Below, piece by piece: positions 1,665 through 64,000 of a DNA stretch of 64,000 nt; position 1 is the first letter of the stretch, and each line of letters begins with the position of its first letter. The stretch is from Branchiostoma floridae (lineage: Eukaryota > Chordata > Leptocardii > Amphioxiformes > Branchiostomatidae). Made by a program: the position numbers and the translations under genes. The stretch spans positions 6,032,012 to 6,096,011 of the forward strand of contig NC_049996.1 in the NCBI RefSeq assembly GCF_000003815.2, in the 5' to 3' direction. The notes beneath the pieces were generated by a model. That model saw only the letters and a list, made by a program, of their open reading frames with translations. It had not been told where the DNA came from and ran no database searches.

Positions 1665-1923
1665 CTACAAATACTGCATTCAGATATTGTGTGTGGAGGA
1701 GGAGGGGGTACGTTCTACTAAGTTAACAGATTTTACTACAGAAAATTCTGTGGACCATTATCAAACTTGTGCAACATTAAAAGTGAAAAAAATTAAAGCT
1801 AAAAGGGTGACAGCAGAGTCAATGTTTGCATTGATTCTATAACAGTGTATGACTTCCAAAGTTAAACACCAGGAAAAAAGACCTTCCCAGTAATTATCTA
1901 TTAGTAAGTACGTTCTGTCCATT

Positions 1924-2202: not shown

Positions 2203-2283
2203 TTAGTAGATAAATTGACAACCAAAAATCTTCAATCATCTCAATTTATAATTCAATAAATCAAATCAAACCAACTGAAGAAA

Positions 2284-2555: not shown

Positions 2556-2753
2556 TGCCTATGTATAGTCTTCAAGCCTTAAAAACCAAATGTTCACGAA
2601 TATCTCTACTACCATTCATTCTAATTGAAGTGTAGCCAAAGCTCACAGCATCTGGGCAAGCCAATTTTCTGCTTGGCTTAGAGCACTTTGTGGTCATTAA
2701 TATCAATCAGTCCTTGTTGATGAATCGTAATGTCTTTGCTCATATCTTCACAT

Positions 2754-3722: not shown

Positions 3723-4639
3723 CTGGTGTTTCCCGACCCTATTTTTTTTTATTTGAAACAAAAAAAAATTTCATATTGATGGCTACACCTCATGTTGACA
3801 AAATGTCACAGCCTCTCCTGTCTCTTCATTAGGTATGGGCCTCAAGTTCCAGTAGCTATACGTGCCTATTTTGAACGGTATGTTAAGAATTTTTAGGGTT
3901 AGGGTTAGGACTTTGCTACCAGGGACCCCTTAAATTAACTGTAACTTGAGTAAGTCCCTCGATATCTCCTACCCCCGACTTTTTGCAAGTGTTTATTTTT
4001 TCGACCGACCGACCGACCCAATCTTTTTCTAAAAAAATCTAAGAAACAACAAATAAAATTGGTGTGCCCTTAGTATACTTCTAAAACAAACAAGGGTCCG
4101 TAGGGCACAAACCTCCTTGAAGTAATTACGGTGTTTGCAGTGTGGTATAAAATGTTTGATATTTGGCTAAATTCAATTTTTTGCGTTGGCAGTAGCAGTT
4201 CAACTGTAATGTTTGATAGCTCTTTTCACATTCCACCACGTCAAGGTATAACAACAAAGCTATTGATCATGTATGTGATGTAGGTTCACATCATTTCTGC
4301 CAGGAACTACAAATTCCACACATCTCAGTCTTGGATTCTCCTGTCGATTTTTTCGACAGATGAGCAGGCAAACAGGCACTTGCTGGTGGGTACGGCAACC
4401 TATTTGCCTGACCTGCACGACTTTTTTTTGGAGAAGGAGGGATGTTCGATTCCTTCACCACCCTCTCGTCTATTAGCGCACTATGTTTCACAGGGACAAG
4501 AACTGCATGCCACGTGTAAGACGACCCCAGCTGATGGAGGTTTGTTATTTGGAGTGTCCGTCTCCTAGGAGGACTTCCGACCAAGGATTTAAGGGGTTCC
4601 TCCTACCCCTGACTCGTGTGTCATGGCGGGTGCGTCATG
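3723..4639. other. no gene seen
   Basis: AT-rich single-copy-looking DNA with a short AGGGTTAGGGTTAGG run near 3895 and a GACC run near 4002. The plus-strand frames at 4380-4930 run into the SINE and show no recognisable domain. Confidence 0.4.
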
Positions 4640-4860
4640 CCCGAACATGCCCTAAGGCCTGCCACTGCTACAAAGGCCTGTCACTGCCACTAGCTGCAGC
4701 TTGGTACTCATATACACCTGAGTTAGGTGAGGAAAGTCGTGTAAAGTGCCTTTACCAAGGGCACAAGATCAGTGGCACAGCGGGTTCAAACTCAGGACCT
4801 CTTGGGCCGGAGCACAACGCGCTGCCAATCACGCCACGTGATCTCACTAAACTATTGATC
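4640..4860 (-). mobile_element. tRNA-derived SINE
   Basis: On the minus strand, an A-box-like GTGGCGTGATTGG and a B-box-like GAGTTTGAACCC lie at tRNA-like spacing (about 4795-4850). They are followed by a conserved-looking body with AAGGCACTTTACACGACTTT and CAGGTGTATATGAGTACC. Internal Pol III boxes followed by a tRNA-unrelated body are the usual layout of a tRNA-derived SINE. Ends are approximate. Confidence 0.55.
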
Positions 4861-5637
4861 ATGTACATCTCAGTACACGTGAATCCCCCAGTTACAACAG
4901 CCCCAGTTTCAGCACCAGAGACAGGATAGATGATAGATTCAACTCTCCACACACAAACATACCTGTGCATCGCCTCTTGGCTGAGTGAAGTTCTGATGCA
5001 TCCTACAAAATACAACAAAGGAAATATTTTATGCCGTGGCTATCAAAAGGAACGTATTGCACAAAGAGGTCTTATTGACAGGAAAAGGTTGGGCAGGCAA
5101 GAACTGGAAGAATTTGTTAAATTAGTAGTTCATTATTCCTACTCTGAAATACCAATAAGTCTCTATTGACAGGATCATCCTCAAGGTTAAGATTGCCCAA
5201 TGGTTATGAGGTTGATAGGCTAATCAGGTGTTATAGACTTTCTTTCAACATTATCAAAACTGTAAGGACTGCTTTGGATGGTTTCAGTCCTTACAATAGA
5301 CAGATTGACTGACTGTCCATCAAAATTAGCATGTATGAAAAGTACATCTTCCATCAGAAATTCTTACTTACTGTTGTGCTTGGCCGCTTCCTCTTGCTGG
5401 ACTCCTGTGTGGTAACCAGGAGGGTCACAGTTATTGATGAACCGTTTGAAACTGAAGGCATTTTTGACATCTTGTTTTTTCCCTTTTTCATTGAATTTGG
5501 ATTCTGCACTGGATGTCATCTATTAAATGTACTTCCTGTGGCCCAATGTAAATAATATCTTAACAGTGTGACCCAGTCAGAATTGCCCTGAAGAAGGTGA
5601 CAGGCGGTCACCAAAACGTTGGTGTAAAAAGAGTATC

Positions 5638-30985: not shown

Positions 30986-32800
30986 AAAGGTATAAATGCA
31001 ACGTATGGCGAGAAAGGAAGCTATATCCCCCAGACTATGGTGCCTGTCCCCAGCGTCTTGGCCAGGCGCATGGCTGGGGACACCTGGCGGCCGCTCATGG
31101 CCTCGCCGCTCTTAAGGGCGCTTAAAAGAACCTCTCCCCATTGAAATGCATTGCGCGGGGTTCTTTTACTCCTATTTTTATATACCAAGGAAGTACCGCC
31201 GGCTTTTAGCCCCAAGACATGCCCGTCGCCCGTCCGCATCGACCTAGCGCGAAAGACGAGGCCTCTAGGCCCGTCTGACCGCCTGACGCGGTGAAATAAG
31301 TTCTTCACCTGTCCAGCCTGATGACGTCATCGTGGCCTGAGAGCCACGCAAGGTATAAATGTAACATATGGCGAGAAAGGAAGCTATATCCCCCAGACTA
31401 TGGTGCCTGTCCCCAGCGTCTTGGCCAGGCGCATGGCTGGGGACACCTGGCGGCCGCTCATGGCCTCGCCGCTCTTAAGGGCGCTTAAAAGAACCTCTCC
31501 CCATTGAAATGCATTGCGCGGGGTTCTTTTACTCCTATTTTTTATATACCAAGGAAGTACCGCCGGCTTTTAGCCCCAAGACATGCCCGTCGCCCGTCCG
31601 CATCGACCTAGCGCGAAAGACGAGGCCTCTAGGCCCGTCTGACCGCCTGACGCGGTGAAATAAGTTCTTCACCTGTCCAGCCTGATGACGTCATCGTGGC
31701 CTGAGAGCCACGCAAGGTATAAATGTAACATATGGCGAGAAAGGAAGCTATATCCCCCAGACTATGGTGCCTGTCCCCAGCGTCTTGGCCAGGCGCATGG
31801 CTGGGGACACCTGGCGGCCGCTCATGGCCTCGCCGCTCTTAAGGGCGCTAAAAGGAACCTCTCCCCATTGAAATGCATTGCGCGGGGTTCTTTTACTCCT
31901 ATTTTTTATATACCAAGGAAGTACCGCCGGCTTTTAGCCCCAAGACATGCCCGTCGCCCGTCCGCATCGACCTAGCGCGAAAGACGAGGCCTCTAGGCCC
32001 GTCTGACCGCCTGACGCGGTGAAATAAGTTCTTCACCTGTCCAGCCTGATGACGTCATCGTGGCCTGAGAGCCACGCAAGGTATAAATGTAACATATGGC
32101 GAGAAAGGAAGCTATATCCCCCAGACTATGGTGCCTGTCCCCAGCGTCTTGAACAGGCGCATGGCTGGGGACACCTGGCGACCGCTCATGGCCTCGCCGC
32201 TCTTAAGGGCGCTTAAAAGAACCTCTCCCCATTGAAATGCATTGCGCGGGGTTCTTTTACTCCTATTTTTTATATACCAAGGAAGTACCGCCGGCTTTTA
32301 GCCCCAAGACATGCCCGTCGCCCGTCCGCATCGACCTAGCGCGAAAGACGAGGCCTCTAGGCCCGTCTGACCGCCTGACGCGGTGAAATAAGTTCTTCAC
32401 CTGTCCAGCCTGATGACGTCATCGTGGCCTGAGAGCCACGCAAGGTATAAATGTAACATATGGCGAGAAAGGAAGCTATATCCCCCAGACTATGGTGCCT
32501 GTCCCCAGCGTCTTGGCCAGGCGCATGGCTGGGGACACCTGGCGGCCGCTCATGGCCTCGCCGCTCTTAAGGGCGCTTAAAAGAACCTCTCCCCATTGAA
32601 ATGCATTGCGCGGGGTTCTTTTACTCCTATTTTTTATATACCAAGGAAGTACCGCCGGCTTTTAGCCCCAAGACATGCCCGTCGCCCGTCCGCATCGACC
32701 TAGCGCGAAAGACGAGGCCTCTAGGCCCGTCTGACCGCCTGACGCGGTGAAATGAGTTCTTCACCTGTCCAGCCTGATGACGTCATCGTGGCCTGAGAGC
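30986..32800 (+). repeat. 364-bp satellite, five monomers
   Basis: Period 364 bp, measured between GGTATAAATG at 31352, 31716, 32080 and 32444; adjacent monomers are nearly identical. In each internal monomer, palindromic TGACGTCA (for example 31322-31329) lies 25 bp before TATAAA (31354-31359). Downstream come a 10-bp stem TGTCCCCAGC/GCTGGGGACA (31408-31445) and a 9-bp stem AAAAGAACC/GGTTCTTTT (31487-31530). Short frames within it are not conserved-looking. No match to a known rRNA, snRNA or tRNA was recognised. Confidence 0.9.
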
Positions 32801-34204
32801 CACATACATGTCCACAAATGGGTGAAATGTACGAAGTTTGGATCAGCCTACGTCACACGTAATTTCCGACAACTTCTAGCTTCCGACAACTTCCGACAAC
32901 CGCTGTCGGCAAAGTTCGGGAAACGTCGACAATTATCTGTGACGTAGCTACGCTAAGTTCGTACATGGGGCGGACCTAATGTACGATGTACGATGTTCGA
33001 AGTTAATATGTTTTCTACTTTGTGGGTTTTGCTAAGTTCGTACATGGGGCGGACCTAATGTACGATGTACGATGTTCGAAGTTAAGATTTTTCTATTTTG
33101 TGGGTTATGCTAAGTTCGTACATGGGGTGGACCTGATGTACGATGTACGATGTACGAAGTTAAGATATTTTGATTATGCTGTGGGTTATGCTAACTCTGT
33201 ACGCAGCATTTTATTCTACTTTCACCTGTCGCACATGGTAAATGTGAAACATGTAGAATAACGATGTTTTGTCTGAAAATAATGAAAATGCAACATGTAT
33301 TGCATTTATCTTTTGTTGAACATTTATTTTTGATAATTTACAAGATCAGCAGTCCTGCTCTCTCCAGTTTTCTCTCTTCTCGAACATTGTGTACGTACAT
33401 CAACCCTGCCCCTCTGTACTAAGTTAGATTTTTTAAGTTCGTACATCGTACATCGTACATCAACCCTGCCCCTATGTACTAAGTTAGATTTTTTAAGTTC
33501 GTACATCGTACATCGTACATCAACCCTGCCCCTCTGTACTAAGTTAGATTTTTTAAGTTCGTACATCGTACATCGTACATCAACCCTGCCCCTCTGTACT
33601 AAGTTAGATTTTTAAGTTCGTACATCGTACATCGTTCATCAACCCTGCCCCTCTGTACTAAGTTAGATTTTTAAGTTCGTACATCGTACATCGTACATCA
33701 ACCCTGCCCCTATGTACTAAGTTAGATTTTTTAAGTTCGTACATCGTACATCGTACACCAACCCTGCCCCTATGTACTAAGTTAGATTTTTTAAGTTCGT
33801 ACATCGTACATCGTACATCAACCCTGCCCCACTGTACTAAGTTAGATTTTTTAAGTTCGTACATCGTACATCGTACATCAACCCTGCCCCTCTGTACTAA
33901 GTTAGATTTTTTAAGTTCGTACATCGTACATCGTACATCGACCCTGCCCCTCTGTACTAAGTTAGATTTTTTTAAGTTCGTACATCGTACATCAACCCTG
34001 CCCCTATGTACTAAGTTAGATTTTTTAAGTTCGTACATCGTACATCGTACACCAACCCTGCCTACCTGTACAAAGTTAGATGACGTCACTTAAAACTTCC
34101 GAAGTTTACCGATTACGGCCTATATCTACCTTTAACTTCGTACAAGTTCGTACAAGTTCGTACACACTAACTTCGTACAATTACCCCTTTTCTGGACATA
34201 CCTC
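32801..34204. repeat. 1.4-kb block of the higher-order repeat, copy A
   Basis: Starts CACATACATGTCCACAAATG. The left part has three units with GTACGATGTACGATGTTCG (about 32945-33165). The right part has about 11 units of 60 bp carrying GTACATCGTACATCGTACAT and AACCCTGCCCC (about 33393-34075). The left motif is the complement of the right motif, so the block has inverted minisatellite arms around a single-copy core. Long minus-strand frames through the right arm are repeat artefacts. Confidence 0.85.
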
Positions 34205-34938
34205 GAGAGCCACGCAAGGTATAAATGTAACATATGGCGAGAAAGGAAGCTATATCCCCCAGACTATGGTGCCTGTCCCCAGCGTCTTGGCCAGGCGCAT
34301 GGCTGGGGACACCTGGCGGCCGCTCATGGCCTCGCCGCTCTTAAGGGCGCTTAAAAGAACCTCTCCCCATTGAAATGCATTGCGCGGGGTTCTTTTACTC
34401 CTATTTTTTATATACCAAGGAAGTACCGCCGGCTTTTAGCCCCAAGACATGCCCGTCGCCCGTCCGCATCGACCTAGCGCGAAAGACGAGGCCTCTAGGC
34501 CCGTCTGACCGCCTGACGCGGTGAAATAAGTTCTTCACCTGTCCAGCCTGATGACGTCATCGTGGCCTGAGAGCCACGCAAGGTATAAATGTAACATATG
34601 GCGAGAAAGGAAGCTATATCCCCCAGACTATGGTGCCTGTCCCCAGCGTCTTGGCCAGGCGCATGGCTGGGGACACCTGGCGGCCGCTCATGGCCTCGCC
34701 GCTCTTAAGGGCGCTTAAAAGAACCTCTCCCCATTGAAATGCATTGCGCGGGGTTCTTTTACTCCTATTTTTTATATACCAAGGAAGTACCGCCGGCTTT
34801 TAGCCCCAAGACATGCCCGTCGCCCGTCCGCATCGACCTAGCGCGAAAGACGAGGCCTCTAGGCCCGTCTGACCGCCTGACGCGGTGAAATGAGTTCTTC
34901 ACCTGTCCAGCCTGATGACGTCATCGTGGCCTGAGAGC
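34205..34938 (+). repeat. 364-bp satellite, two monomers
   Basis: Continuation of the satellite at 30986-32800 with TGACGTCA, TATAAA and both stems in each monomer. Confidence 0.88.
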
Positions 34939-35310
34939 CACATACATGTCCACAAATGGGTGAAATGTACGAAGTTTGGATCAGCCTACGTCACACGTAA
35001 TTTCCGACAACTTCTAGCTTCCGACAACAGGCGCATGGCTGGGGACACCTGGCGGCCGCTCATGGCCTCGCCGCTCTTAAGGGCGCTTAAAAGAACCTCT
35101 CCCCATTGAAATGCATTGCGCGGGGTTCTTTTACTCCTATTTTTTATATACCAAGGAAGTACCGCCGGCTTTTAGCCCCAAGACATGCCCGTCGCCCGTC
35201 CGCATCGACCTAGCGCGAAAGACGAGGCCTCTAGGCCCGTCTGACCGCCTGACGCGGTGAAATGAGTTCTTCACCTGTCCAGCCTGATGACGTCATCGTG
35301 GCCTGAGAGC
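34939..35310. repeat. truncated block start joined to a partial satellite monomer
   Basis: The first 90 bases of the 1.4-kb block (to CTTCCGACAAC) are fused directly to the middle of a 364-bp monomer (AGGCGCATGGCTGGGG). This is a recombination scar within the array. Confidence 0.75.
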
Positions 35311-36714
35311 CACATACATGTCCACAAATGGGTGAAATGTACGAAGTTTGGATCAGCCTACGTCACACGTAATTTCCGACAACTTCTAGCTTCCGACAAC
35401 TTCCGACAACCGCTGTCGGCAAAGTTCGGGAAACGTCGACAATTATCTGTGACGTAGCTACGCTAAGTTCGTACATGGGGCGGACCTAATGTACGATGTA
35501 CGATGTTCGAAGTTAATATGTTTTCTACTTTGTGGGTTTTGCTAAGTTCGTACATGGGGCGGACCTAATGTACGATGTACGATGTTCGAAGTTAAGATTT
35601 TTCTATTTTGTGGGTTATGCTAAGTTCGTACATGGGGTGGACCTGATGTACGATGTACGATGTACGAAGTTAAGATATTTTGATTATGCTGTGGGTTATG
35701 CTAACTCTGTACGCAGCATTTTATTCTACTTTCACCTGTCGCACATGGTAAATGTGAAACATGTAGAATAACGATGTTTTGTCTGAAAATAATGAAAATG
35801 CAACATGTATTGCATTTATCTTTTGTTGAACATTTATTTTTGATAATTTACAAGATCAGCAGTCCTGCTCTCTCCAGTTTTCTCTCTTCTCGAACATTGT
35901 GTACGTACATCAACCCTGCCCCTCTGTACTAAGTTNNNNNNNNNNNNNNNNNNNNNNNNNNNNNNNNNNNNNNNNNNNNNNNNNNNNNNNNNNNNNNNNN
36001 NNNNNNNNNNNNNNNNNNNNNNNNNNNNNNNNNNNNNNNNNNNNNNNNNNNNNNNNNNNNNNNNNNNNNNNNNNNNNNNNNNNNNNNNNNNNNNNNNNNN
36101 NNNNNNNNNNNNNNNNNNNNNNNNNNNNNNNNNNNNNNNNNNNNNNNNNNNNNNNNNNNNNNNNNNNNNNNNNNNNNAGTTCGTACATCGTACATCGTAC
36201 ATCAACCCTGCCCCTATGTACTAACTTAGATTTTATAAGTTCGTACATCGTACATCGTACACCAACCCTGCCCCTATGTACTAAGTTAGATTTCTTAAGT
36301 TCGTACATCGTACATCGTACATCAACCCTGCCCCACTGTACTAAGTTAGATTTTTTAAGTTCGTACATCGTACATCGTACATCAACCCTGCCCCTCTGTA
36401 CTAAGTTAGATTTTTTAAGTTCGTACATCGTACATCGTACATCGACCCTGCCCCTCTGTACTAAGTTAGATTTTTTTAAGTTCGTACATCGTACATCAAC
36501 CCTGCCCCTATGTACTAAGTTAGATTTTTTAAGTTCGTACATCGTACATCGTACACCAACCCTGCCTACCTGTACAAAGTTAGATGACGTCACTTAAAAC
36601 TTCCGAAGTTTACCGATTACGGCCTATATCTACCTTTAACTTCGTACAAGTTCGTACAAGTTCGTACACACTAACTTCGTACAATTACCCCTTTTCTGGA
36701 CATACCTCGAGAGC
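35311..36714. repeat. 1.4-kb block, copy B (contains a gap)
   Basis: Same organisation as copy A: left inverted units, core, then right 60-bp units, part of which is replaced by the N run 35936-36177. Confidence 0.85.
35936..36177. other. assembly gap (242 N)
   Basis: A run of N inside the 60-bp minisatellite. The true number of units here is unknown. Confidence 0.99.
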
Positions 36715-37442
36715 CACGCAAGGTATAAATGTAACATATGGCGAGAAAGGAAGCTATATCCCCCAGACTATGGTGCCTGTCCCCAGCGTCTTGGCCAGGC
36801 GCATGGCTGGGGACACCTGGCGGCCGCTCATGGCCTCGCCGCTCTTAAGGGCGCTTAAAAGAACCTCTCCCCATTGAAATGCATTGCGCGGGGTTCTTTT
36901 ACTCCTATTTTTTATATACCAAGGAAGTACCGCCGGCTTTTAGCCCCAAGACATGCCCGTCGCCCGTCCGCATCGACCTAGCGCGAAAGACGAGGCCTCT
37001 AGGCCCGTCTGACCGCCTGACGCGGTGAAATAAGTTCTTCACCTGTCCAGCCTGATGACGTCATCGTGGCCTGAGAGCCACGCAAGGTATAAATGTAACA
37101 TATGGCGAGAAAGGAAGCTATATCCCCCAGACTATGGTGCCTGTCCCCAGCGTCTTGGCCAGGCGCATGGCTGGGGACACCTGGCGGCCGCTCATGGCCT
37201 CGCCGCTCTTAAGGGCGCTTAAAAGAACCTCTCCCCATTGAAATGCATTGCACGGGGTTCTTTTACTCCTATTTTTTATATACCAAGGAAGTACCGCCGG
37301 CTTTTAGCCCCAAGACATGCCCGTCGCCCGTCCGCATCGACCTAGCGCGAAAGACGAGGCCTCTAGGCCCGTCTGACCGCCTGACGCGGTGAAATGAGTT
37401 CTTCACCTGTCCAGCCTGATGACGTCATCGTGGCCTGAGAGC
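36715..37442 (+). repeat. 364-bp satellite, two monomers
   Basis: As above; the second monomer has CACGGGG where the others have CGCGGGG. Confidence 0.88.
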
Positions 37443-38791
37443 CACATACATGTCCACAAATGGGTGAAATGTACGAAGTTTGGATCAGCCTACGTCACAC
37501 GTAATTTCCGACAACTTCTAGCTTCCGACAACTTCCGACAACCGCTGTCGGCAAAGTTCGGGAAACGTCGACAATTATCTGTGACGTAGCTACGCTAAGT
37601 TCGTACATGGGGCGGACCTAATGTACGATGTACGATGTTCGAAGTTAATATGTTTTCTACTTTGTGGGTTTTGCTAAGTTCGTACATGGGGCGGACCTAA
37701 TGTACGATGTACGATGTTCGAAGTTAAGATTTTTCTATTTTGTGGGTTATGCTAAGTTCGTACATGGGGTGGACCTGATGTACGATGTACGATGTACGAA
37801 GTTAAGATATTTTGATTATGCTGTGGGTTATGCTAACTCTGTACGCAGCATTTTATTCTACTTTCACCTGTCGCACATGGTAAATGTGAAACATGTAGAA
37901 TAACGATGTTTTGTCTGAAAATACTGAAAATGCAACATGTATTGCATTTATCTTTTGTTGAACATTTATTTTTGATAATTTACAAGATCAGCAGTCCTGC
38001 TCTCTCCAGTTTTCTCTCTTCTCGAACATTGTGTACGTACATCAACCCTGCCCCTCTGTACTAAGTTAGATTTTTTAAGTTCGTACATCGTACATCGTAC
38101 ATCAACCCTGCCCCTATGTACTAAGTTAGATTTTTTAAGTTCGTACATCGTACATCGTACATCAACCCTGCCCCTCTGTACTAAGTTAGATTTTTTAAGT
38201 TCGTACATCGTACATCGTTCATCAACCCTGCCCCTCTGTACTAAGTTAGATTTTTAAGTTCGTACATCGTACATCGTACATCAACCCTGCCCCTATGTAC
38301 TAAGTTAGATTTTTTAAGTTCGTACATCGTACATCGTACACCAACCCTGCCCCTATGTACTAAGTTAGATTTTTTAAGTTCGTACATCGTACATCGTACA
38401 TCAACCCTGCCCCACTGTACTAAGTTAGATTTTTTAAGTTCGTACATCGTACATCGTACATCAACCCTGCCCCTCTGTACTAAGTTAGATTTTTTAAGTT
38501 CGTACATCGTACATCGTACATCGACCCTGCCCCTCTGTACTAAGTTAGATTTTTTTAAGTTCGTACATCGTACATCAACCCTGCCCCTATGTACTAAGTT
38601 AGATTTTTTAAGTTCGTACATCGTACATCGTACACCAACCCTGCCTACCTGTACAAAGTTAGATGACGTCACTTAAAACTTCCGAAGTTTACCGATTACG
38701 GCCTATATCTACCTTTAACTTCGTACAAGTTCGTACAAGTTCGTACACACTAACTTCGTACAATTACCCCTTTTCTGGACATACCTCGAGA
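37443..38791. repeat. 1.35-kb block, copy C
   Basis: Third copy of the block, with about one 60-bp unit fewer than copy A. The spacing B to C (35311 to 37443) gives a higher-order period of about 2.1 kb. Confidence 0.85.
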
Positions 38792-42419: not shown

Positions 42420-45400
42420 ATGGCGCTACGTTGTTGTGCGGGGTTCGGGCGGGCCTATGTCCGGTGGTGTGGGGCTCCTCTGGACAACTCGCTGTGCCGA
42501 CATGTCAGCCTACATGTCCCGGAAGGGCGCAGAAGTCCAACGGTTCATCTCAGGTGGTTGTTAGACTCCATATTCCCGCCTGTTCATGATGTTCCTGATG
42601 TGGTTTCTCAAGTCATTCAAACCGTTATGTTCTCGGGTTTGCGGAATACTAGGTCACTACTGGGCTGTCGCCATAAAAAGTATAAGCCTTCTCACATTAG
42701 TTAGGACGCATTTGCGGCGACAGGAATTCTAGGTAATATGTCAAAGGGTAAGGCACACGAAAAGTAAACAAAACCCGTCTGGATATTGTTATGCAAATTG
42801 AAACAATGGTCAAGACAAAGACTGTTTACTTCTTGTGTGCCTTACCCTTTGACATATTACCTAGAATTCATGTCGCCGCACATGCGTCCTAACTAATGCG
42901 AGAAGGCTTATTTATGCATTAAAGAATTTAAGGTGTTCATAATGCGTTGATTGAATTCATCCATCACAAATCGTGACCACAGCATGGCCAGAACACATGA
43001 TATTAAAACCGTAAGTTCTACACAAGGAGGTTAAAGACCTCCATGGTTATGCAGCAGTACCCAGGGAAGCCACTAGGGGGCCCAAATTCGGAATCATTAA
43101 CGTTACCAGTTTTTGTCATGACAGACAATTTTCCGCTATTGACAGATAAAGCCTTTAAATAAGAATTTTTGTTTACCATTTACAGGGAACAACTTGTCAA
43201 TAGCCTTTTGGTTCCGTTTTGGAATTTCTTTTGACCGTACCGTAAAGAAATCCGTGAAAATAAGACATAGGTTTCCCCCTTCGTGTTGGCTCCCAATTTT
43301 TTTTAGTACTGCTCTCGAACCGAGACCTTTGTCACACAAAACTAATACAACAAATATAAAACTAATCCATTTGGCCATTTTCGAGTTATATTCACAATCA
43401 GACACAGGCACTGCCTAGAACATTACCTCCCCAACATACATCATGAGATAATTACACAATATTGTCTTGAAGTGGTTCCATCACAAATTGTAGCACTAGA
43501 AAGGATGGGTATACCTCACAGAAAAAGACATACAGATCCCCTTTGAAGACATTCCTAGTGTCTGTTTAAAGTTGTCCATTCTGACATTATTTAGAGGTAT
43601 ACAAGTGTAGAAATTAGAGGAACAGAAAGAACGAAACATGCCGACACCCGGGATCGAACCCGGGTCGGCAGATTACAAACCAGCAGCGAAACCACTGCGC
43701 TAGAAAAGGCTGATCAGCCGATTCGCATGGCTGTTACAGTAGACACCACTCACCCCCACCCCATAAAATTCACTGCTCCTAGAACTTTAACCCGACAAGG
43801 AGCCCACATTAGAGGATTGCTTAATCATTGATATTTTTCTCCACTCAGCTGGAGATCTATTTCAACTGACAGACAAGGAGACAAACAGCACAATGGACCA
43901 TCATCTATGTTATCCCTGTATGTGAGACTGAATGACAAGATAGGACAGTTGTTACAGAGAGCACACCCTACTGCTGGCAAGGTGTATGTGCAATTTATAA
44001 ATGGTAAGTTACTGTTTATTATTAAATATTATTGTGATAAATAATGTTATTTGTTGTCGGAAGTGCAAGACTTTCCATTTGTTTAATCATAATCTGTTAT
44101 GATGTAATATGCATTATCTCTAGCCTGGGTACCATCCGGAAAGTAGTTCGCTCCGGCATTATATACTATAATTTATAAACAGTCACTTCTAGCTCTGACA
44201 TTCATTGTACACTATATACAGTCGCTTCTCTGTGTTTCCATCTGGGAACGCGGACCATCTTAACGCCTGGAATCGTCCAAATTTTGGAAGCAGGTGCTGA
44301 TTGGTCCCTACTCATGAGCGAATTATGGAATGGGTTCAAACGCTCGTTCGAACCTGTGTTCCAACACCGGAAAAGCCCTGCGTCCCCTTGCGCATGCAGG
44401 CTGTTCTGGCGAGTGCTCTGGAACCCATTCCTTACTTTGCTTATTAACTGAGGTTACCACCAAAATGTTTGAATGCTTGTTACCTCTGAGAGGTACTGTG
44501 GTAGGTCATGTGCGTTTACGTCTGTGCACCCAGGGGCACCCAAAATCGGAGCTGTGCACCCAATCTTTTCTGTGGGTGCATACAAACACCCAACTATTTT
44601 CATAGGCTTATGTATGTCAAGATGTCAGTAAACTAGTAAACACCATATTCTTGACATCTATGTGTTAGAGAGATAATAGAATGCCTGTCATAGTACTTGT
44701 TGAACTTCATCGATCCAAGCCAACATCAAGTGCTTCACACTAACCAACTTCTGGGTTCCACAGGTGACTCTGGACATGAGAACACTGATTGTCATGTGTT
44801 CAAAACATGACATCATTTGTTTGAGGAGTTTTTGGTACTTCCTATGATAACTGCTGGGATGAGAACATGTTAAATTTGCACCTTTTCTTAACTTCGCTGA
44901 TCTCCGTGACCACACTGTCATGATCTTTTGGTTGGCAAAATTTGGTGTTATAATGCCTGGATGTCAGGAATAGCATGAAAATGTCAATTTGAAAGCAAGT
45001 ATCCCTTTTCCAATTTCTTAAGAGCTCCATTGGAATTACTAATTTAGTAGGTTTGCAATTAGGATATTGTGATATTCTACTACCTATGTGAAAATTCAAG
45101 CGTCAATGTTAAAACGCCATGTTTTCCGTGGGGAATAAGAGGAGACGCAAGCCGTCTGCCGGCGTCGGGTGACTAAGTATTTTATAGCCCCATTAGTGGC
45201 CGTCTCAGATGGCATTGGAAGGTCTCTCACTCAGCCATCCGGGCGTTCACCATAAAAACTGACAGGACGGCCCGGACGCTCACGATGTGTCCGTGGCCGT
45301 TTTGGACGACAATTGATGCGTCCAGAAGGTCTGAAATGTGCTTGGACGCTATTGGACGGTCTGGGCAATTTTGGACGCTTGAATTTTCACATAGGTAGTA

Positions 45401-48400
45401 CTTCATTTTATGTTTGCACCCCAATTTTTTTTGGTGCACTTAATTTTCTAGCTTGGGTGCACCAGTGCACCTAATCCTATATCATCATCCTTTATATCAT
45501 CATCCTTTATTGATTTCAACATAGCAGACATAATAGCAGCCTGAATAGCGTTGAAATTTAACATAAAATACGTATATATAAAAATAAAGTAGTAAACAAC
45601 ATCTCCGACGTTAAGTAGCCATTGTTACTACCTACGTGTCTACAGTCTTGTTGTACAGCTTGATGGCTGTGTGCAAGAAAGAGTTCTGAAGTCTTTTAGT
45701 TCTAGCTGGGGGGATGGAGAAAGTGTTTTTGTTTCTCAGTGATCGTCCCGTGGCAGTTGATCTGGAAGGTGGAACCATGTTGTGTAGGCGATGGTCAACA
45801 TCCAACATTTGTGTGAAAAGTTTGACAGCTGCATCCTCGCGTCGCGACTGGAGGGTGGGTAGGTCGGGCACATCGCGCCTGCCCGCTCGGCTGATGATCC
45901 GTAGAGCTCGCTGTTGGACTCTCTGCATTGCGCGTTCCTGGTCCTTGCTACAGCCTACCAGGAGGACATTACCGTACTCGAGGACTGGGCGCACGAGGGA
46001 CACGTAGATAGACACTAGGTCGGCGACACTGGTCCCTTTCTTTCCAAGTAGTCTCAAGAAGTGCAGTCTAAATCCTAAAAATGAATTGGAGCCCTGCTGC
46101 CCTCTCCAGGTGCTGTTCAGTCCTGGAGAGAAGGGAAAACTGCAGCCGGGATCATGAGACACAAGCACACCTTGGGGAGGGGCTACGCCAGGCTGACGTG
46201 GCGGGAGGTGGACTGCTGTCGACAGGTAAATGCTAGACTTGTAATTTCTTCATTCCTGGTGCAGCTCACAGACAGGGCTCGAAATACTACCTGTATATGC
46301 AGGTTAGTGCAGGTAAAATTGGAGCTGTGCAGGTATTTCTGGTATCTACCTGCACCTAACCTGCACTGGTCCATGTACTGGGTATATGCAGGTTAGTGCA
46401 GGTAAAATTGGAGCTGTGCAGGTATTTCTGGTGTCTACCTGCACCAGGCTTTTAGCTAGGATTTTATAATAGGGAGTCCAAACTTAATGGTGAGTTGCGG
46501 TAAGTGACTATTGTAGGGGGGTCTGGGGGCATCCACCTTCCATGGTGCAGATCGAGTTTTTGATGATTTTAAATTAAAACAGTGCATTCTAAGGTATCCA
46601 AGACGCAAGAATACTGGTACAGATGTCACAGTAGAAGACTGTGACCACAGATGACCTGGTAGCATCCCTGGTCAATCAGAATTTCATGCTTGTCAGAGGA
46701 TTTTCTCCCCAGTATAGGGCGTCCAGGGGGATCAAATTTCTTGTTATTCTAAGAAGAGTGCGTCCAGATGACGCGTTGACGCATGCCTGGCTAAAAGCCT
46801 GACCTGCACCTAACCTGCACTGGTACATGTACTGGGTTTTATACATAAATACCCTATAATGTAGGTGTATGTGGATTGTTATTAGCTGCATTGACTGTTA
46901 ACCACCTATAAAGTATAAAGGACAAAATAGCCATGGTTCCTGAACAATTTTGATATGATCCATACTTCATAAACTTGTGTGTGGTGCAGGTAAAATTTGT
47001 CTGGTGCAGATAATTTTCAATGTTATCTGCACCAGTGCAGGTATGCAGAAAAAAGGATTTTGAGCCCTGTCACAGCTCTTCACTGGATTCTATTGCATAG
47101 TCAGCAGTGCTATAGTTACCTTTTCCAAGAAGGTTTTGTTTTTGGGTACATATGTGTGTGATAGTTTGTGGACAGCATTAAACTGGAAAAGTTGTGGATG
47201 ATAATATGTTGGTAGTTTTGGCCAAAAGAAGGAGCCATTAGATTATGCCCCCCTACTGATTGTGTGACTTTTGGAAGCATTTCTTGTTCCTCCTTATAGT
47301 TCAAACTGGATGTGCTGAAGACATTACCAGTGTTCCTGTTAGCATCACTGCCCTTTATATGGCTGCTGGTGTTACCTCTCATGTAAGTATGATCTACTCA
47401 CTCACTCACTCACAAACTCACTCACTCACTCACTCACTCACTCACTCACTCACTATCTCACTCACTCACTCACTCACTAACTCACTCACTCACTCACTCA
47501 CTAACTCACTCACTCACAAACTCACTCACTCACTCACTCAACCACCCACTCACTCACTCACTCACTCACTCACTCACTCACTCACTCACTGTTTCTTTTT
47601 CTTGTCCTCTTGTATTATCTTATGGAAAGAAAGATATTCTTACATACAGAACATTCAAGAAAAATCAAGAAACAGTGTTTTTATGCTAATTCTTACTGGA
47701 CATGTTACCATTTTGATAATGATAACCAGTCAAGATATCTTCACAGTCAGAATATGTGCAGTAAGCGTACAATTGTGTATACATGTAGTAGAAGAAGATC
47801 AGAAATTTTGCAATGGTAATTGTGAGGTGGTGAAACTCATCAATCAAACTAATTCTAACACTCGCCAAAAAGCTGTTACTCAAGCAACTGGATATGATTT
47901 TGGAAACTGTCCGACGTTTCAGACAGCCATCCGGTGTCTTTCATTAGTGACACTGAAGAGATCTTGTTGGAGAAGTTTTCATGTCCTAGCTATGAACTGA
48001 TATGTAAAAGCTTAAGGATATCTCTCGAGTGTCACTGACGAAAGGATCTGAAACGTCTGACCCTTTCCAAAATCGTACCCAGTTTCTTGAGTAACTGCTT
48101 TTTGGCATATCCTTACCTGGATGTCTAACCTGCATCAACGTGATATAAAAAACACATCACTACCAATGGACCAGCCCTCTGCTGTTGTGTCTTACTCAAA
48201 TGTGTGGCCCATGGGCTACAGAAATGGAGATGGGCACCACCTTTATGAATCTGTTACAGATACACAGGAAACTTTTATCAGCTAATTAACCATCTTTTAG
48301 AATCATTTCTTGTTTGCTAAGAAATTTCAATATTCATTGGTTAAAGAGTAGCCCCAAATGCACTAAGGAATGAAAAAATGTATGTTGACTTTTTGCAATG

Positions 48401-51400
48401 TTATCTGGGTTTGTTAAGCAGGCTGATTTTTCTAACATTACGATATTTCCATTTTTCAGTTACTTTTATCCCAAACAGCTGTTGAGCTCGCAATTTTGGT
48501 CAGCAGGGCAGAGAGTGACTTTCTTCAACAGTTACCACATGGAGAGAGTGGCATACTACCCTAGCATTCTACAAGCTCTGCACAGAAAAGCACATCGAGT
48601 AGAGGACTTCAGAAATAGAACAAAACTGCAAGAATTGTGTTCAAATGTAAGTTTTCTATTGTATCCTTCTTCAGAATGCTGAGGTTATGCATTATTTTAT
48701 AGACAACTCAAAGAAATTTTCAATCTTTTTTTCAATCCTGAATATACCTTACTCGAAATACATTTTTTGGTCAACTTGCACTGGTGCAAGTTCACCCCCA
48801 GATTACTCAGGCAATACAGTCGTACCAAACAGATTGTTTTGTAGCAAAATGGAGCTATTGTTATGAGCCTGTTCACGTTTTCACAATCAGGTCCAGATTC
48901 AGGCCCGGGCCTGGCCCTGAATCATGACCGTGTGTCCTGAATTTTCTGTACCAGGTACCCCTGCTAGTACTCATCTCCAGTATTGGGTGCTTTTGTAATG
49001 CAACCATGCATGGTTTCAACTGCCAACTCAAAAGTACAAGCTCTTGATTTTTGCTGACAGTCACAATTTATAGATAGTATTTGATAATTAGAACTACATG
49101 TATTGCCCATCATGTAAGACTTGCTGTGGCTCCACCTGCAGGCATTAAGAGAGGAGAGTCCTTCCACTGCAGCCATCATGAGGGTCCGTCCCACATTCTC
49201 ACATCCTGGGCTGCACTTTAACAAACTCTCCAGGACACAGTTGGTATGTTACATGTCAAGTTGTTTTTTTGAAATACATGGTGTTGTCAAGAGTTTCCTC
49301 TGGTGGGCATGATATAAATAAAATTCGGCCATCGGCCAATCCTACCTGCGGTTGGGCCGTACATTGGGTGATACGGAATTGGCCAACGTTTTGTATAGCC
49401 TGAGTTCCAACCTCCGTACTGACCACTAGCTCAATCCTTTTGCTGTGGTTAGCAGTTGCCATTTTGAATTTCATCCTGTCTGCATGTATATCCCTCATTC
49501 TGGTTGCCAATGGTTATTTCCCTTTGTATCGGTCCTTCTGTTCAAGTGTTAAACAGAATCATCACCGAAATGTACAAGACCAAAATGTACAAAATCAAAA
49601 GCAAACTAGAGGCAACATTTTCGTGAAAATGCAGAATGCAAATTCCCAGAGGTTTTAACGGTCGACCACTAAATTTTCATTGTTTTATTCAATGTAACGT
49701 TATCTCTTATCCCTGACAGATTTGGGTGGCAGATAGCTTCCAATGTCAGTACAAGGTTTGACTTTGAGCCCCCTAATGTTTAATTTTGGAACTGCAGGGG
49801 AATTTTTGTCAAGCCATTCCAAAGAGGATATCTGAAAGGAATGACAGATTTCCATCATTTCAGGCATACAGCATAGGCAAATAGCATAGGCAAAGATGTT
49901 TAGAATGATATACCTGTTATGCAAATGATGACTTATTTTGCATAACTATAAAGGAAATTGTGTAATTTCATTGTTTTCCATAACTGGACTTCATTAAATG
50001 TAATTTATGATGGATGGAACATAAACAGATACCAAATAAGCAAATGAGGAACTGATTTGCATCTTCTATGCAAATATGGCAACAAATGTTGGGAATTTTA
50101 TTAGTAGAATGAAATGTATACATGAGTATAGAAAATGGGATAACTGGCATCCATTCCAGGCCTGGCTGAGTCGTACCCTGCTGCTGACCCCCTACCTGCC
50201 CAAACTCCTGCTGAGGAGACGTCTGCTGAAACACCTGGAGGATGTGCATGCCATGGACCGGGGGATCCAACAGGAGGGCCTCAGTACACTCAGCACACAG
50301 GAGCTACGCAAGGTCAGTACACTCAGCACACAGGAGCTACGCAAGGTCAGTACACTCACCACACAGGAGCTACGCAAGGTCAGTACACTCACCACACAGG
50401 AGCTACGCAAGGTCAGTACACTCACCACACAGGAGCTACGCAAGGTCAGTACACTCAGCACACAGGAGCTACGCAAGGTCAGTACACTCACCACACAGGA
50501 GCTACGCAAGGTCAGTACACTCAGCACACAGGAGCTACGCAAGGTCAGTACACTCAGCACACAGGAGCTACGCAAGGTCAGTACACTCAGCACACAGGAG
50601 CTACGCAAGGTCAGTACACTCACCACACAGGAGCTACGCAAGGTCTGTACACTCACCACACAGGAGCTACGCAAGGTCAGTACACTCACCACACAGGAGC
50701 TACGCAAGGTCAGTACACTCACCACACAGGAGCTACGCAAGGTCAGTACACTCACCACACAGGAGCTACGCAAGGTCAGTACACTCACCACACAGGAGCT
50801 ACGCAAGGTCTGTACACTCACCACACAGGAGCTACGCAAGGTCAGTACACTCACCACACAGGAGCTACGCAAGGTCAGTACACTCACCACACAGGAGCTA
50901 CGCAAGGTCAGTACACTCACCACACAGGAGCTACGCAAGGTCAGTACACTCACCACACAGGAGCTACGCAAGGTCAGTACACTCACCACACAGGAGCTAC
51001 GCAAGGTCAGTACACTCACCACACAGGAGCTACGCAAGGTCAGTACACTCACCACACAGGAGCTACGCAAGGTCAGTACACTCACCACACAGGAGCTACG
51101 CAAGGTCACCAACTACTGTCTGCTTTTACATTCTGTTTTTTTACCATAAATGTTATTGACCAATTGTCTCACAATATGTCTGTTTTGTAGTGATGCTTTT
51201 CAGCCATGCTAGAATTAAATGCTATTTCGCAGCAGATAATGAGAAATTTGAATGTAAACTCAGACCCTCGAGACCCTTTCATCACTTTTTTGCCGCGCAC
51301 TATTACGGACCCCTGTCACGTGAAGAATTGTTGTGGAAACTGGTTTTCTGTCAGGCTCTGTCAAATTGTTATTAAAATAATGTACGGTATAGTTATCATT

Positions 51401-52877
51401 AACTTGCAGAAAAGGATGCTCTGTGTACAGTGTTGCTTTTGCCTCCAAGGTGACACTGATGTTACATGTTGAATGTGTACCGTAGATGTTGACACTGATG
51501 TTGCATGTTGAATGTGTACCGTAGATGTTGACACTGATGTTGCATGTTGAATGTGTACCGTAGATGTTGACACTGATGTTGCATGTTGAATGTGTACCGT
51601 AGATGTTGACACTGATGTTGCATGTTGAATGTGTACCGTAGATGTTGACACTGATGTTGCATGTTGAATGTGTACCGTAGATGTTGACACTGATGTTGCA
51701 TGTTGAATGTGTACCGTAGATGTTGACACTGATGTTGCATGTTGAATGTGTACCGTAGATGTTGACACTGATGTTGCATGTTGAATGTGTACCGTAGATG
51801 TTGACACTGATGTTGCATGTTGAATGTGTACCGTAGATGTTGACACTGATGTTGCATGTTGAATGTGTACCGTAGATGTTGACACTGATGTTGCATGTTG
51901 AATGTGTACCGTAGATGTTGACACTGATGTTGCATGTTGAATGTGTACCGTAGATGTTGACACTGATGTTGCATGTTGAATGTGTACCGTAGATGTGCTA
52001 CATCCGTGGAGTGGACAGCATATCCTGGTCCAGAGACACATGTGTGGAGTGGTTGACACAGTGGCTGCAGATATCTACACAGCTACAAGGTGAGTTACTG
52101 AGCTTAAACAGAATGCAAGGCTTGAAATACAATCTGCACTGGTCCATGTACTGGGTTTTATATATAAATGTCCTATGATGTAGGCGTATATGGATTGTTA
52201 TCAGCTGCATTGACTGTTACCTCTTATAGTTACATGTATAAAGTATAAATTAAAGGAAAAATAGCAATAGTTTTTGAAGTTTTAGTATGATCCATACTTC
52301 CTAACTTCAGAGTGGTGCAAAAATTTCAATGTTACCTGCACAAGGTATGCAGAAAAAAGTATTTCGAGCCATAGTATGTCTATAGTTGCAGCTTAGCCAC
52401 ACAACTAGTCAATCCTCTTTTTAAATTTGCAAACAACTAGTACATGTGAATTATGTCCCAGGGGAAGGCCTATGGTATCCCACTATGGCTAAACTGATAA
52501 CTACAGATGGAGACACCAAGCCCTTGGTAATGCAAGTAGGACTGCTGCAAATTAAAAAGACATCTTGGCACCCTACCTATTTGATTTGATATTTGATTTG
52601 TCATGGACTACTAATATGCATTTCTGTCTGTCCCTAAATTGTGTACTCTTGAAGTCAGCTACATTGTATGCTGCCTGAGTGTCAGTGTAATATATTCTAA
52701 CATTTGTCAATATTAAAACAAATTGATAAAATATTAATAAAGTGTTGTTGGTTTTGACAGTGTTGTCACTTGGATACAACTGACAAGTATTTTTTCTTCA
52801 CATCCACAGCTTCAGAGCTCTGTCTGCTTGTCCACTGTATGGTGTTCCTATCCTCTGGACACTCACATGTCAAGTAG
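42420..52877 (+). CDS. LETMD1: LETM1 domain-containing protein 1, complete, nine exons
   Basis: Exons: 42420-42553, 43849-44003, 46110-46225, 47300-47382, 48460-48646, 49142-49243, 50160-50312, 51993-52089, 52810-52877. Phases agree at all eight junctions. The total is 1,095 nt, or 364 residues; human LETMD1 is about 360. The start MALRCCAGFGRAYVRWCGAP is Arg-rich without acids, as in a mitochondrial targeting peptide. Exon 4 (FKLDVLKTLPVFLLASLPFI) and exon 5 (YFYPKQLLSSQFW) match the family's inner-membrane helix and the YLFPRQLL...FW motif. Exon 7 (SRTLLLTPYLPKLLLRRRLL) and exon 8 (MCYIRGVDSISW, WLTQWLQIS) match the LETM1-like ribosome-binding region. The family is mitochondrial and has no enzymatic motif. 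Oddities: the exon 1 donor is GTGGTT, and exons 7 and 8 abut minisatellites that multiply their splice sites. The model uses the first of 25 possible exon 7 donors. Confidence 0.93.
42683..42910. mobile_element. foldback element in LETMD1 intron 1
   Basis: Arms of about 90 bp are nearly perfect inverted repeats: TAAGCCTTCTCACATTAG and onward, matched by the complement ending at 42910. Only about 60 bp separates them. Arm identity suggests recent insertion or gene conversion. Confidence 0.8.
43640..43710 (-). pseudogene. tRNA-like sequence, Thr(TGT)-like, degenerate
   Basis: The minus strand has an A box TAGCGCAGTGG, a perfect 5-bp T-arm around GGTTCGATCCC, and an anticodon loop TTTGTAA giving TGT. 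Only the first three acceptor pairs (GCC/GGC) form and the anticodon stem has a mismatch. It is likely a tRNA pseudogene or a SINE head rather than a working tRNA. It lies in LETMD1 intron 1. Confidence 0.55.
44525..45470. mobile_element. GTGCACC-ended MITE-like element
   Basis: CTGTGCACCCAGGGGCACCC and GGGTGCATACAAACACCC lie on the left; TTGGTGCACTTAATTTTC and GGGTGCACCAGTGCACC on the right. Interrupted by the element at 45081-45397. Ends approximate. Confidence 0.4.
45081..45397. mobile_element. 0.3-kb MITE related to the 2.1-kb GACGGC element
   Basis: Starts TACCTATGTGAAAATTCAAG and ends with its complement, with TAC/GTA continuing the symmetry outside. The interior has the same GACG-rich words as 9638-11770. 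Confidence 0.7.
45480..46080 (-). pseudogene. CR1-like LINE C-terminal fragment
   Basis: The minus-strand frame contains DLVSIYVSLVRPVLEYGNVL, RVQQRALRIISRAG and TKRLQNSFLHTAIKLYNK, the usual C-terminus of CR1/L2 polymerases. The 3' tail has AATAAA plus a duplicated GGATGATGATAT. The fragment starts about 30 bp before the acceptor of LETMD1 exon 3. Confidence 0.8.
46273..47069. mobile_element. MITE of the CAGGGCTCGAAATAC family with an insertion
   Basis: CAGGGCTCGAAATACTACCT at the left and GATTTTGAGCCCTG at the right, flanked by ACAG/CACAG. The left terminal segment is repeated at about 46385-46445, and about 350 bp of other sequence is inserted. Lies in LETMD1 intron 3. Confidence 0.65.
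47394..47590 (+). repeat. CTCA tetranucleotide microsatellite
   Basis: About 48 units with a few CTAA and CAAA interruptions. It begins about 12 bp after the donor of LETMD1 exon 4 (CTCAT|GTAAGT). Confidence 0.95.
47864..48106. mobile_element. foldback MITE in LETMD1 intron 4
   Basis: GCCAAAAAGCTGTTACTCAA at the left and its complement at the right. Related to 56381-56684. Both copies are followed by CTGGATGTCTAACCT. Confidence 0.6.
50280..51106 (+). repeat. 33-bp minisatellite spanning the LETMD1 exon 7 splice donor, 25 units
   Basis: Each unit consists of AGTACACTCAGCACACAGG (C/G variant), then AGCTACGCAAG|GT, and so repeats the last 11 codons of exon 7 together with the 5' splice site AAG|GTCAGT. 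The first donor follows 50312 and the last follows 51104, exactly 24 units later. All units are in the exon's frame and add VSTLTTQELRK each. Two units read GTCTGT, and the last donor is GTCACC. Confidence 0.95.
51447..51992 (+). repeat. 39-bp minisatellite spanning the LETMD1 exon 8 splice acceptor, 14 units
   Basis: Each unit ends GAATGTGTACCGTAG, the sequence immediately before exon 8 (ATGTGCTACATC at 51993). Fourteen copies of the acceptor end between 51485 and 51992, exactly 39 bp apart. In the exon 8 frame every unit contains CCG TAG, so only the last acceptor gives an open reading frame. Confidence 0.95.
52117..52373. mobile_element. MITE of the CAGGGCTCGAAATAC family, partial
   Basis: AAGGCTTGAAATACAATCTG at the left, GTATTTCGAGCCATAG at the right, with the internal TGGATTGTTATCAGCTGCAT shared by other copies. 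In LETMD1 intron 8. Confidence 0.6.
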
Positions 52878-60900: not shown

Positions 60901-62932
60901 CATCAACATTCAGACCAACCCGAGGGTGCAGGAAAATCCACGAGGACGGGAAAAAATGATCCCTTTAAAAAGCATCTCTTTGGCTGGTTCAACCATGACA
61001 TGGTCAGTATATAAACTGACATAGGAGGGAAATGGTGCCTGTACAGTGGTGTAACAACTTTCACAACTGCTCCATTAGGCCAATGGTTCCACAACAATAG
61101 CTTGGAGGGCGTCAACCCCACAAAAAATTAAGCAGAAACTCTTAATTTTTTTCACTGATAGATATGGAAAACCAGAACATGGCTACAGTAATGAAAACCT
61201 AGTCTAAAAGACTTCTTTAACCCTACACATTTTATTACGTTAAACAAAGTGCTGTTCTGACTCCTTCCAGCAGGTAAACAAGGTAAGCATTGAGACTGCA
61301 AACTGGAGATGCTAGTTCTCTTCCTGGGAATTACCAAGTCCTGATCATGACAGGGCTTTGGAGATCAGGGAAATAATGTGTCTCATCACACGATGACAAG
61401 ACGACAGTTAAATGTTGTGATATGCCTAGGATGCAGAAATACGTGTACATAATCATGACAACAGTAATTGTACAAACAAACACAAACATGAATGGCACTT
61501 TTGTTATCTTCAACTTCTAAAATAATACGGTCACCAATTTATTTTCCCCATGTTGAGAGAGTTGTTGTAGTGTGTTAACCCACTTGGCTGAGCGGCTGTG
61601 TACATGTCTGACTGTAGGAAGGGATGGGGACAGAACTGACTCACCTGGCTGAGAGGCTGTGTACATGTCTGACTGTAGGAAGGGATGGGGACAGAACTGA
61701 CTCACCTGGCTGAGAGGCTGTGTACATGTCTGACTGTAGGAAGGGATGGGGACAGAACTGACTCACCTGGCTGAGAGGCTGTGTACATGTCTGACTGTAG
61801 GAAGGGATGGGGACAGAACTGACTCACCTGGCTGAGAGGCTGTGTACATGTCTGACTGTAGGAAGGGATGGGGACAGAACTGACTCACCTGGCTGAGAGG
61901 CTGTGTACATGTCTGACTGTAGGAAGGGATGGGGACAGAACTGACTCACCTGGCTGAGAGGCTGTGTACATGTCTGACTGTAGGAAGGGATGGGGACAGA
62001 ACTGACTCACCTGGCTGAGAGGCTGTGTACATGTCTGACTGTAGGAAGGGATGGGGACAGAACTGACTCACCTGGCTGAGAGGCTGTGTACATGTCTGTC
62101 TGTAGGAAGGGATGGGGACAGAACTGACTCACCTGGCTGAGAGGCTGTGTACATGTCTGACTGTAGGAAGGGATGGGGACAGAACTGACTCACCTGGCTG
62201 AGAGGCTGTGTACATGTCTGTCTGTAGGAAGGGATGGGGACAGAACTGACTCACCTGGCTGAGAGGCTGTGTACATGTCTGTAGGAAGGGATGGGGACAG
62301 AACTGACTCACCTGGCTGAGAGGCTGTGTACATGTCTGTCTGTAGGAAGGGATGGGGACAGAACTGACTCACCTGGCTGAGAGGCTGTGTACATCTCTGT
62401 AGGAAGGGATGGGGACAGAACTGACTCACCTGGCTGAGAGGCTGTGTACATGTCTGACTGTAGGAAGGGATGGGGACAGAACTGACTCACCTGGCTGAGA
62501 GGCTGTGTACATGTCTGACTGTAGGAAGGGATGAGGACAGACATCGCGGGGTCCCACTCGTGCTGGGTGCAGAACTTCTGTCACCTCAAACTGTCCGGAG
62601 ATACTCGACATTTGGAACATCCTTGGGGTGAACTTAAAGTCCACTGGATCTGAAGGCAATAGTTTTGTGGAGTGGTTAAAAGTTACATTTTTGTTTAATG
62701 AAAGATGTAAATTACAGTAGGGTACATAAATTATAAGTCTCCTACAAATTGCCAAGCTTCCTAGAGCTTCAGTAGAAATGTATAAACCACAAAAGTACCT
62801 TCCAACATGCAGTCATACACAGTCCTGTCCTTCTCGCCCAAGGCTACCCAGAATTCCCTGCGCTCCTTCCCTTCTTCCATCTCGATGACAGACAGACTGC
62901 TGTTCGGAGTCAGACCACACTCTAAGGGACAT
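57964..62932 (-). CDS. SVIL: supervillin, last six exons (gelsolin-like repeat end and villin headpiece)
   Basis: Exons in transcript order: 62799-62932, 62491-62649, 60736-60879, 60127-60248, 59144-59299, 57964-58050. Phases match throughout, giving 266 residues before TGA. Landmarks shared with vertebrate supervillin: [94 protein letters not shown] and the headpiece end [13 protein letters not shown]. The first exons cover the last gelsolin-like repeat; the last two form the villin headpiece. Supervillin links actin and myosin II to membranes. The 5' part of the gene lies beyond 64000. Exon 62491-62649 ends at the first donor of a 61-bp minisatellite that repeats its tail. The gene converges on LETMD1, with about 5.1 kb between stop codons. 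Confidence 0.95.
58139..58562. mobile_element. complete hAT-like MITE with 8-bp target duplication
   Basis: TAGGGGTGGGTACCGGTACA at the left, GGTATCGGTG-type complement ending CCCAGCCCTA at the right, flanked by ATGTACAT on both sides (58131-58138 and 58563-58570). The interior alternates AGGTCC, GGTCCGG and GGACCTGA. Located in the last SVIL intron. Confidence 0.8.
61573..62540 (-). repeat. 61-bp minisatellite spanning a SVIL splice donor, about 16 units
   Basis: On the minus strand each unit contains CATCCCTTCCTACAG, then TCAGACATGTACACAGCC, then TCTCAGCCAG|GTGAGTCAG: the tail of exon 62491-62649 with its 5' splice site. The pyrimidine-rich exon stretch TTCCTACAG also resembles a 3' splice site, so each unit looks like a 28-nt mini-exon plus a 33-nt mini-intron. 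A few units are 57 bp. 61 is not divisible by three; reading through one unit reaches a stop. Confidence 0.93.
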
Positions 62933-63194: not shown

Positions 63195-64000
63195 CCTACA
63201 GTCCCCTCTACATGTTCCACATCCCAGTACCTGTCCTGTACCCTACATGTTCCACATCCCAGTACCTGTCCTGTACCCTACATGTTCCACATCCCAGTAC
63301 CTGTCCTGTACCCTACATGTTCCACATCCCAGTACCTATCCTGTACCCTACATGTTCCACATCCCAGTACCTGTCCTGTACCCTACATGTTCCACATCCC
63401 AGTACCTGTCCTGTACCCTACATGTTACAGTACCTGTCCTGTACCCTACATGTTCCACATCCCAGTACCTGTCCTGTACCCTACATGTTCCACATCCCAG
63501 TACCTGTCCTGTACCCTACATGTTCCACATCCCAGTACCTGTCCTGTACCCTACATGTTACAGTACCTGTCCTGTACCCTACATGTTCCACATCCCAGTA
63601 CCTGTCCTGTACCCCACATGTTCCACATCACAGTACCTATCCTGTACCCTACATGTTCCACATCCCAGTACCTGTCCTGTACCCTACATGTTACAGTACC
63701 TGTCCTGTACCCTACATGTTCCACATCCCAGTACCTGTCCTGTACCCTACATGTTACAGTACCTGTCCTGTACCCTACATGTTCCACATCCCAGTACCTG
63801 TCCTGTACCCTACATGTTCCACATCCCAGCGCCTGTCCTGTACCCTACATGTTCCAGTACCTGTCCTGTACCCTACATGTTCCACATCCCAGTACCTGTC
63901 CTGTACCCTACATGTTACAGTACCTGTCCTGTACCCTACATGTTCCACATCCCAGTACCTGTCCTGTACCCTACATGTTCCACATCCCAGTACCTGTCCT
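63195..64000. repeat. 35/28-bp minisatellite in the upstream SVIL intron
   Basis: Unit TCCACATCCCAGTACCTG, TCCTGTACCCTACATGT (35 bp), interspersed with a 28-bp variant lacking CCACATCC. On the minus strand every unit contains GGACAG|GTACTG, a donor-like site. The array runs off the end of the window, so its relation to the next SVIL exon cannot be seen. Confidence 0.9.

Follow-up and report, generated by a model that had tools for sequence, protein, structure and literature searches.

The window analysed here is a stretch of 64,000 nucleotides from the amphioxus Branchiostoma floridae, and its plus strand carries a gene whose nine exons have GT-AG borders and compatible phases and together encode a protein of 364 residues. 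The joined protein matches the LETM1 RBD domain (PF07766, residues 125-354, E 1.3e-51), a Pfam scan of the 364 residues returned no other domain, and the gene may be LETMD1. Exon 1 (42420..42553), which holds the start codon and has no domain match, exon 2 (43849..44003) and exon 3 (46110..46225) are predicted from frame and splice sites. Exons 4 (47300..47382) and 6 (49142..49243) fall where the joined protein matches PF07766, and exon 5 (48460..48646) matches positions 34-100 of the domain at 25.2 bits, just below the cut-off of 25.3. Exon 7 (50160..50312, 153 nt, phase 0 at both ends) covers PF07766 positions 136-183 and exon 8 (51993..52089) positions 182-221; exon 9 (52810..52877) contains the stop. 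Between exons 7 and 8 lies intron 7 (50313..51992), 1680 nt long with the proximal pair of splice sites. Residues 251-346 align with yeast Mdm38 (3skq) at E 2e-9, the sole match at E up to 1. Exon 7 ends after residue 310 and the alignment crosses the exon 7/exon 8 junction without a gap, so that the conserved protein is the one made with the first donor and the last acceptor of the arrays described below.

The literature covered gave no paper on LETMD1 in amphioxus. A second, better-scoring LETM1-domain gene lies on contig C4 of the assembly, and its region (stretch L010 2423-3086) holds an array of 15 copies of 44 bp ending in AAAAAGGT. Within the gene studied here, an ACTC microsatellite (47396-47590) starts at the 14th base of intron 4.

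The end of exon 7 is the first copy of a 33-bp minisatellite (50281..51108, plus strand; TRF, 25.1 copies as assembled, 98% matches, score 1600, period 33), and the further 24 copies are intronic. The motif AAG|GT is found in all 25 expected places at a step of 33, with last exonic bases at 50312 to 51104 and first intron bases at 50313 to 51105. The donor hexamer is GTCAGT in 22 copies, GTCTGT in two (50643 and 50808) and GTCACC in the last (51105). The exon-adjacent donor, AAG|GTCAGT (50313..50318, plus strand), is the predicted main 5' splice site. An earlier, sequence-only reading of this DNA had correctly given the 25 sites, their spacing, the end of exon 7 at 50312 and the 364-residue product of the first donor. 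It had also taken all donors to be GTCAGT and the repeated part to be the last 11 codons of the exon, but the part repeated is the final 32 bases of exon 7 (50281-50312), preceded by C in the exon and by G in the repeats. Three types can be told apart among the 24 intronic units (17, 5 and 2 copies), which translate as VSTLTTQELRK, VSTLSTQELRK and VCTLTTQELRK. A DNA search of the assembly, by a method that skips very common words, placed all 24 matches at this one locus, of which a single copy was found. The S-to-T variant of the unit also creates a donor-like word, GTGGTGAGT, 19 times on the opposite strand of 50281-51108.

When each of the 25 donors is joined to exon 8, all the products are open, the shortest having 364 residues and the longest 628, with 11 added at each step; every donor is thus frame-neutral, as had been claimed, and a change of copy number would keep the frame, the unit being a multiple of three. 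The openness of the units across the donors is weak evidence. The actual unit has no stop in any of the three plus-strand frames, and shuffling its letters leaves a given frame open in 69% of cases. Only three sites vary between the exon copy and the units, and all three variants change an amino acid, which is compatible with an unconstrained intron, although three sites are few. The multiple-of-three unit length looks incidental: copied coding exon DNA, together with a one-in-three chance of such a length, accounts for a 33-bp unit that is neutral to the frame, and this neutrality gives no evidence of a protein function.

The other end of intron 7 lies in a second, 39-bp minisatellite (51451..51996, plus strand; TRF, 14.0 copies, 99%). 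Neither this array nor the published class discussed below figured in the sequence-only reading. Each of the 14 units contains CCGTAG|ATG, with an in-frame TAG, and a branch-point-like CTGAT, whose A is 26 nt from the G of the TAG in the one copy measured; CTGAT may act as the branch point. All but one of the 14 units are identical, the exception being an outer copy. The array stops four bases inside exon 8, and its last unit is the exon 8 acceptor. With any of the 13 acceptors farther upstream, MLTLMLHVECVP and an in-frame stop are added, giving 322 residues, and only the last, exon-adjacent one yields the normal protein; exon 8 would thus use the nearest of its 14 acceptors. The 20 nt before the AG of this acceptor contain 10 pyrimidines, the lowest number among the gene's eight acceptors. 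The repetition of both ends of one intron is the unusual part of the locus.

The neighbouring gene, on the minus strand, is villin-like. Pfam recognises a villin headpiece exon, and the minus-strand exons upstream of it may belong to the same villin/gelsolin-like gene. No Pfam domain was found in two other minus-strand stretches or in two villin-like pieces; a PDB sequence search matched one piece to the gelsolin family (best E 5.5e-5; an unrelated lectin scored 3.5e-4) and the other only weakly to villin (E 0.23; an unrelated protease scored 0.87). This gene has two donor arrays. The first, of 61 bp (61581..62541, minus strand; TRF and exon joins), begins in an exon and has 15 donors CAG|GTGAGT, of which the first (62490) joins the next exon openly and the other 14 lead to a stop. 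The second, of 35 bp (63208..64000, minus strand), carries donors GACAG|GTA from the exon end onwards and extends to L025:1026, just beyond the window; 22 of these donors were counted, a 23rd match at L025:4580 lying outside the array and being left out, and reading beyond the first donor meets an immediate stop. Three of the four splice-site arrays in the stretch (39-bp, 61-bp and 35-bp) are therefore intolerant of distal choice. As the distal copies truncate the product, proximal choice must already operate at these arrays, if the genes are functional.

Arrays of this sort have been described from lancelets under the name "mirages", and judged by its repeats the locus belongs to this class. 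The donor array starts in exon 7 and the acceptor array enters exon 8, so that tandem repeats span both exon/intron boundaries; splice signals sit in the units (AAG|GT in 25 of 25, CCGTAG in 14 of 14). As far as the accessible text of these sources goes, mirages have been described in the globin genes BflGb6 (150-160 bp) and BflGb9 (a two-copy 157-bp repeat), for which an intron-gain model was proposed (PMC3087553), in Adh3, with units of 10-72 bp and a length instability that includes somatic change (cited in PMC3087553), and in troponin C (cited in PMC3902484). The same repeat finder recovered a globin mirage at one of 10 globin places, a 158-bp repeat of 4.2 copies with AG|GTTACTCC in each printed copy, which fits the published BflGb6 repeat and accords with B. 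floridae as the species; the two-copy BflGb9 repeat was not seen at the 10 places, of 3.2 kb each. Compared with the Adh3, troponin C and globin mirages, the locus differs in its 25 donors, its frame-neutral unit and the placement of one intron's donor and acceptor in unrelated arrays; the Adh3 and troponin C cases enter this comparison through the descriptions of the citing papers, and a double array may occur there.

The nearest precedent found is PGBD5, which has two different splice-site arrays in one gene, one of 60 bp and one of 108 bp, located at exons 3 and 4 (PMC3902484, in the part available). Unlike those described here, the PGBD5 repeats are imperfect and number 2-7 and 3-6 copies depending on the assembly, and their placement as described is ambiguous, whereas at our locus the two arrays clearly bound the same intron. 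In the mirage literature covered, with most subscription papers outside the search, we met neither a survey of mirages across a genome nor a clear example of an intron repeated at both ends; the accessible part of a huntingtin paper (PMC2206037) mentions tandem repeats but not splice-site arrays, and we found no literature joining minisatellites, tandem splice donors and the exon-intron boundary. Intron gain by tandem duplication of AGGT (the Rogers model) has been described for a potato RdRp gene (PMC4974935, as far as its available text goes). Our locus resembles it in that the splice signal is carried by a tandem duplication, but here an existing intron has apparently been lengthened and none newly formed. 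The locus departs from this model in that its intron lacks a pair of duplicated AGGT flanks, the acceptor coming from the unrelated 39-bp array. Tandem alternative donors with in-frame spacing are a known class as well. They share with the array the presence of several donors a multiple of three apart; here, however, the spacing is 33 bp, the copies are 25 and any use of the further donors is hypothetical.

We consider it likely that the locus is an amphioxus mirage in which a minisatellite, born by slippage, has grown across the exon/intron boundary, and that splicing uses its exon-proximal copy and discards the others with the intron. TCA is common to both ends of the duplicated segment, the exon reading GGCC-TCAGTACAC and the intron AAGG-TCACC. 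One tandem duplication by slippage or misrepair at this shared TCA would give AAGG-TCAGTACAC, matching the repeat junction that is observed. This junction and the terminal GTCACC point to GTCACC as the probable ancestral donor, which survives at the far end as the last donor, AAG|GTCACC (51105..51110, plus strand), which would mark the ancestral start of the intron. The duplication would have pushed this weaker donor downstream and placed a better GTCAGT at the exon end with the protein unchanged, the predicted U1 pairing going from -4.1 to -6.0 kcal/mol, and later slippage or unequal exchange could have multiplied and homogenised the units. Most probably exon definition, a principle of splice-site choice, selects the exon-proximal donor and acceptor. 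With exon 7 defined as an exon of 153 nt, the nearest donor would be used and the other 24 would leave with the intron. Such proximal choice is suggested by the three arrays of four where any other choice would be harmful, and by the published mirages, which are reported, in the accessible text, to leave splicing undisturbed (PMC3087553, PMC3902484).

Several points count against the use of the proximal donor. Its U1 pairing is moderate: the main donor copies have C at +3, and their -6.0 kcal/mol is far from the -11.6 of a full-consensus donor and ranks fifth among the gene's eight donors, the other seven ranging from -10.2 to -4.8 (four stronger, three weaker). These values do not support the "over-strong" splice site that had been proposed. 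An intronic AAG|GTGACA, located where the 39-bp array begins, is slightly better, at -6.6 kcal/mol, and since 22 of the 25 donors are identical, position alone tells these apart. A shortest-intron rule, moreover, would pair the last donor with the first acceptor, giving a 381-nt intron and a truncated protein.

Both ends of the intron lie in independent splice-site minisatellites, which offer 25 x 14 = 350 possible pairs. One might go further and speculate that, after a duplication had upgraded a poor donor with the protein unaffected, the arrays persist as self-upgrading redundant sites, buffered by exon-proximal choice, whose copy number tunes splicing efficiency between individuals. We regard this extended scenario as rather unlikely.

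The length-variable protein put forward earlier, in which several donors are used and 0 to 24 extra units of 11 residues are inserted, would be allowed by the 25 open products and by the identity of 22 donors. It appears improbable and is left unsupported by our results, as the insertion would fall in the conserved stretch aligned without gaps to Mdm38 within the LETM1 RBD, and the acceptor array and the neighbour's two donor arrays do not tolerate distal copies, so that proximal choice must operate there. Moreover, all array variants change amino acids, and the published mirages are reported, in the text available, without disturbance of splicing (PMC3087553). Minor use of the other donors may nevertheless occur. 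Still less probable is an intron gain in progress, in which AG and GT copies would become new splice sites, exons and introns, as the accessible text proposes for globin mirages (PMC3087553). Each unit does contain AG and GT, but the gene model needs no copy as an exon, and under the duplication model the intron would be older than the repeat. It is very improbable that the array is a coding repeat whose exon reaches the last donor at 51105: the frame is open that far, but a protein always carrying the 24 units (628 residues) would have 264 residues inserted inside the LETM1 RBD and would depend on GTCACC, the weakest of the 25 donors by U1 pairing. An assembly artefact, equally hard to credit, is suggested by a copy number that is the assembly's own and by PGBD5, whose copy number differs between assemblies, but the unit variants are patterned, the edge copies differ, and resequencing of PGBD5 confirmed the original sequence (PMC3902484, in the part available).

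The locus offers a natural experiment on spliceosomal choice between identical sites that lie side by side. In the donor array each choice would mark the protein readably, whereas in the acceptor array and the neighbour's donor arrays a wrong choice would truncate it. Comparing RNA from the tolerant and the truncating arrays would directly measure exon-proximal selection.

We also compared TRF units with their shuffles, using a donor matrix entered by hand, for 26 arrays (at least 80% matches, period 10-200, at least three copies), among which the 35-bp array is counted twice (window and L025). Two of the 26 reached p < 0.05, both within the window, and none of the 13 arrays from 19 unselected stretches (190 kb) did so; for the 35-bp and 39-bp arrays the scores did not exceed those of the shuffles. 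The best donor-matrix word of the 33-bp unit scores 9.1 and is probably GTGGTGAGT, on the other strand, and AAGGTCAGT scores 8.3. As the best word differs from AAGGTCAGT, the p value of the 33-bp unit gives the finding no support.

Genome-wide, pairs of AGGTGAGT (GTGAGT) within 35 bp number 206 (28 for the reversed word) and pairs of AGGTAAGT (GTAAGT) 119 (205 for the reversed word). As these two counts are opposite, we do not claim an enrichment of splice sites in lancelet repeats. Single donor words in a 190-kb sample were about equal to their controls (4 vs 5 and 10 vs 9), and both pair lists contain words resembling dispersed and simple repeats. Among the 100 of 206 AGGTGAGT places listed, 24 with an identical recurring 17-base match and seven simple repeats were dropped by eye; the remaining 69 listed places form 35 loci, 13 with at least two pairs. 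The 28 places of the reversed-word control, none dropped, form 23 loci, two with at least two pairs. The AGGTAAGT list, showing 100 of 119 places, is taken as it stands.

Further repeats were seen in passing. The region 30987-38750 of the window contains repeat blocks of 364 bp, 78 bp and 60 bp, which return several times as part of a larger arrangement, and the 10-kb stretch L041 has four 60-bp arrays (594-5400), resembling a Thr/Pro-rich coding repeat.
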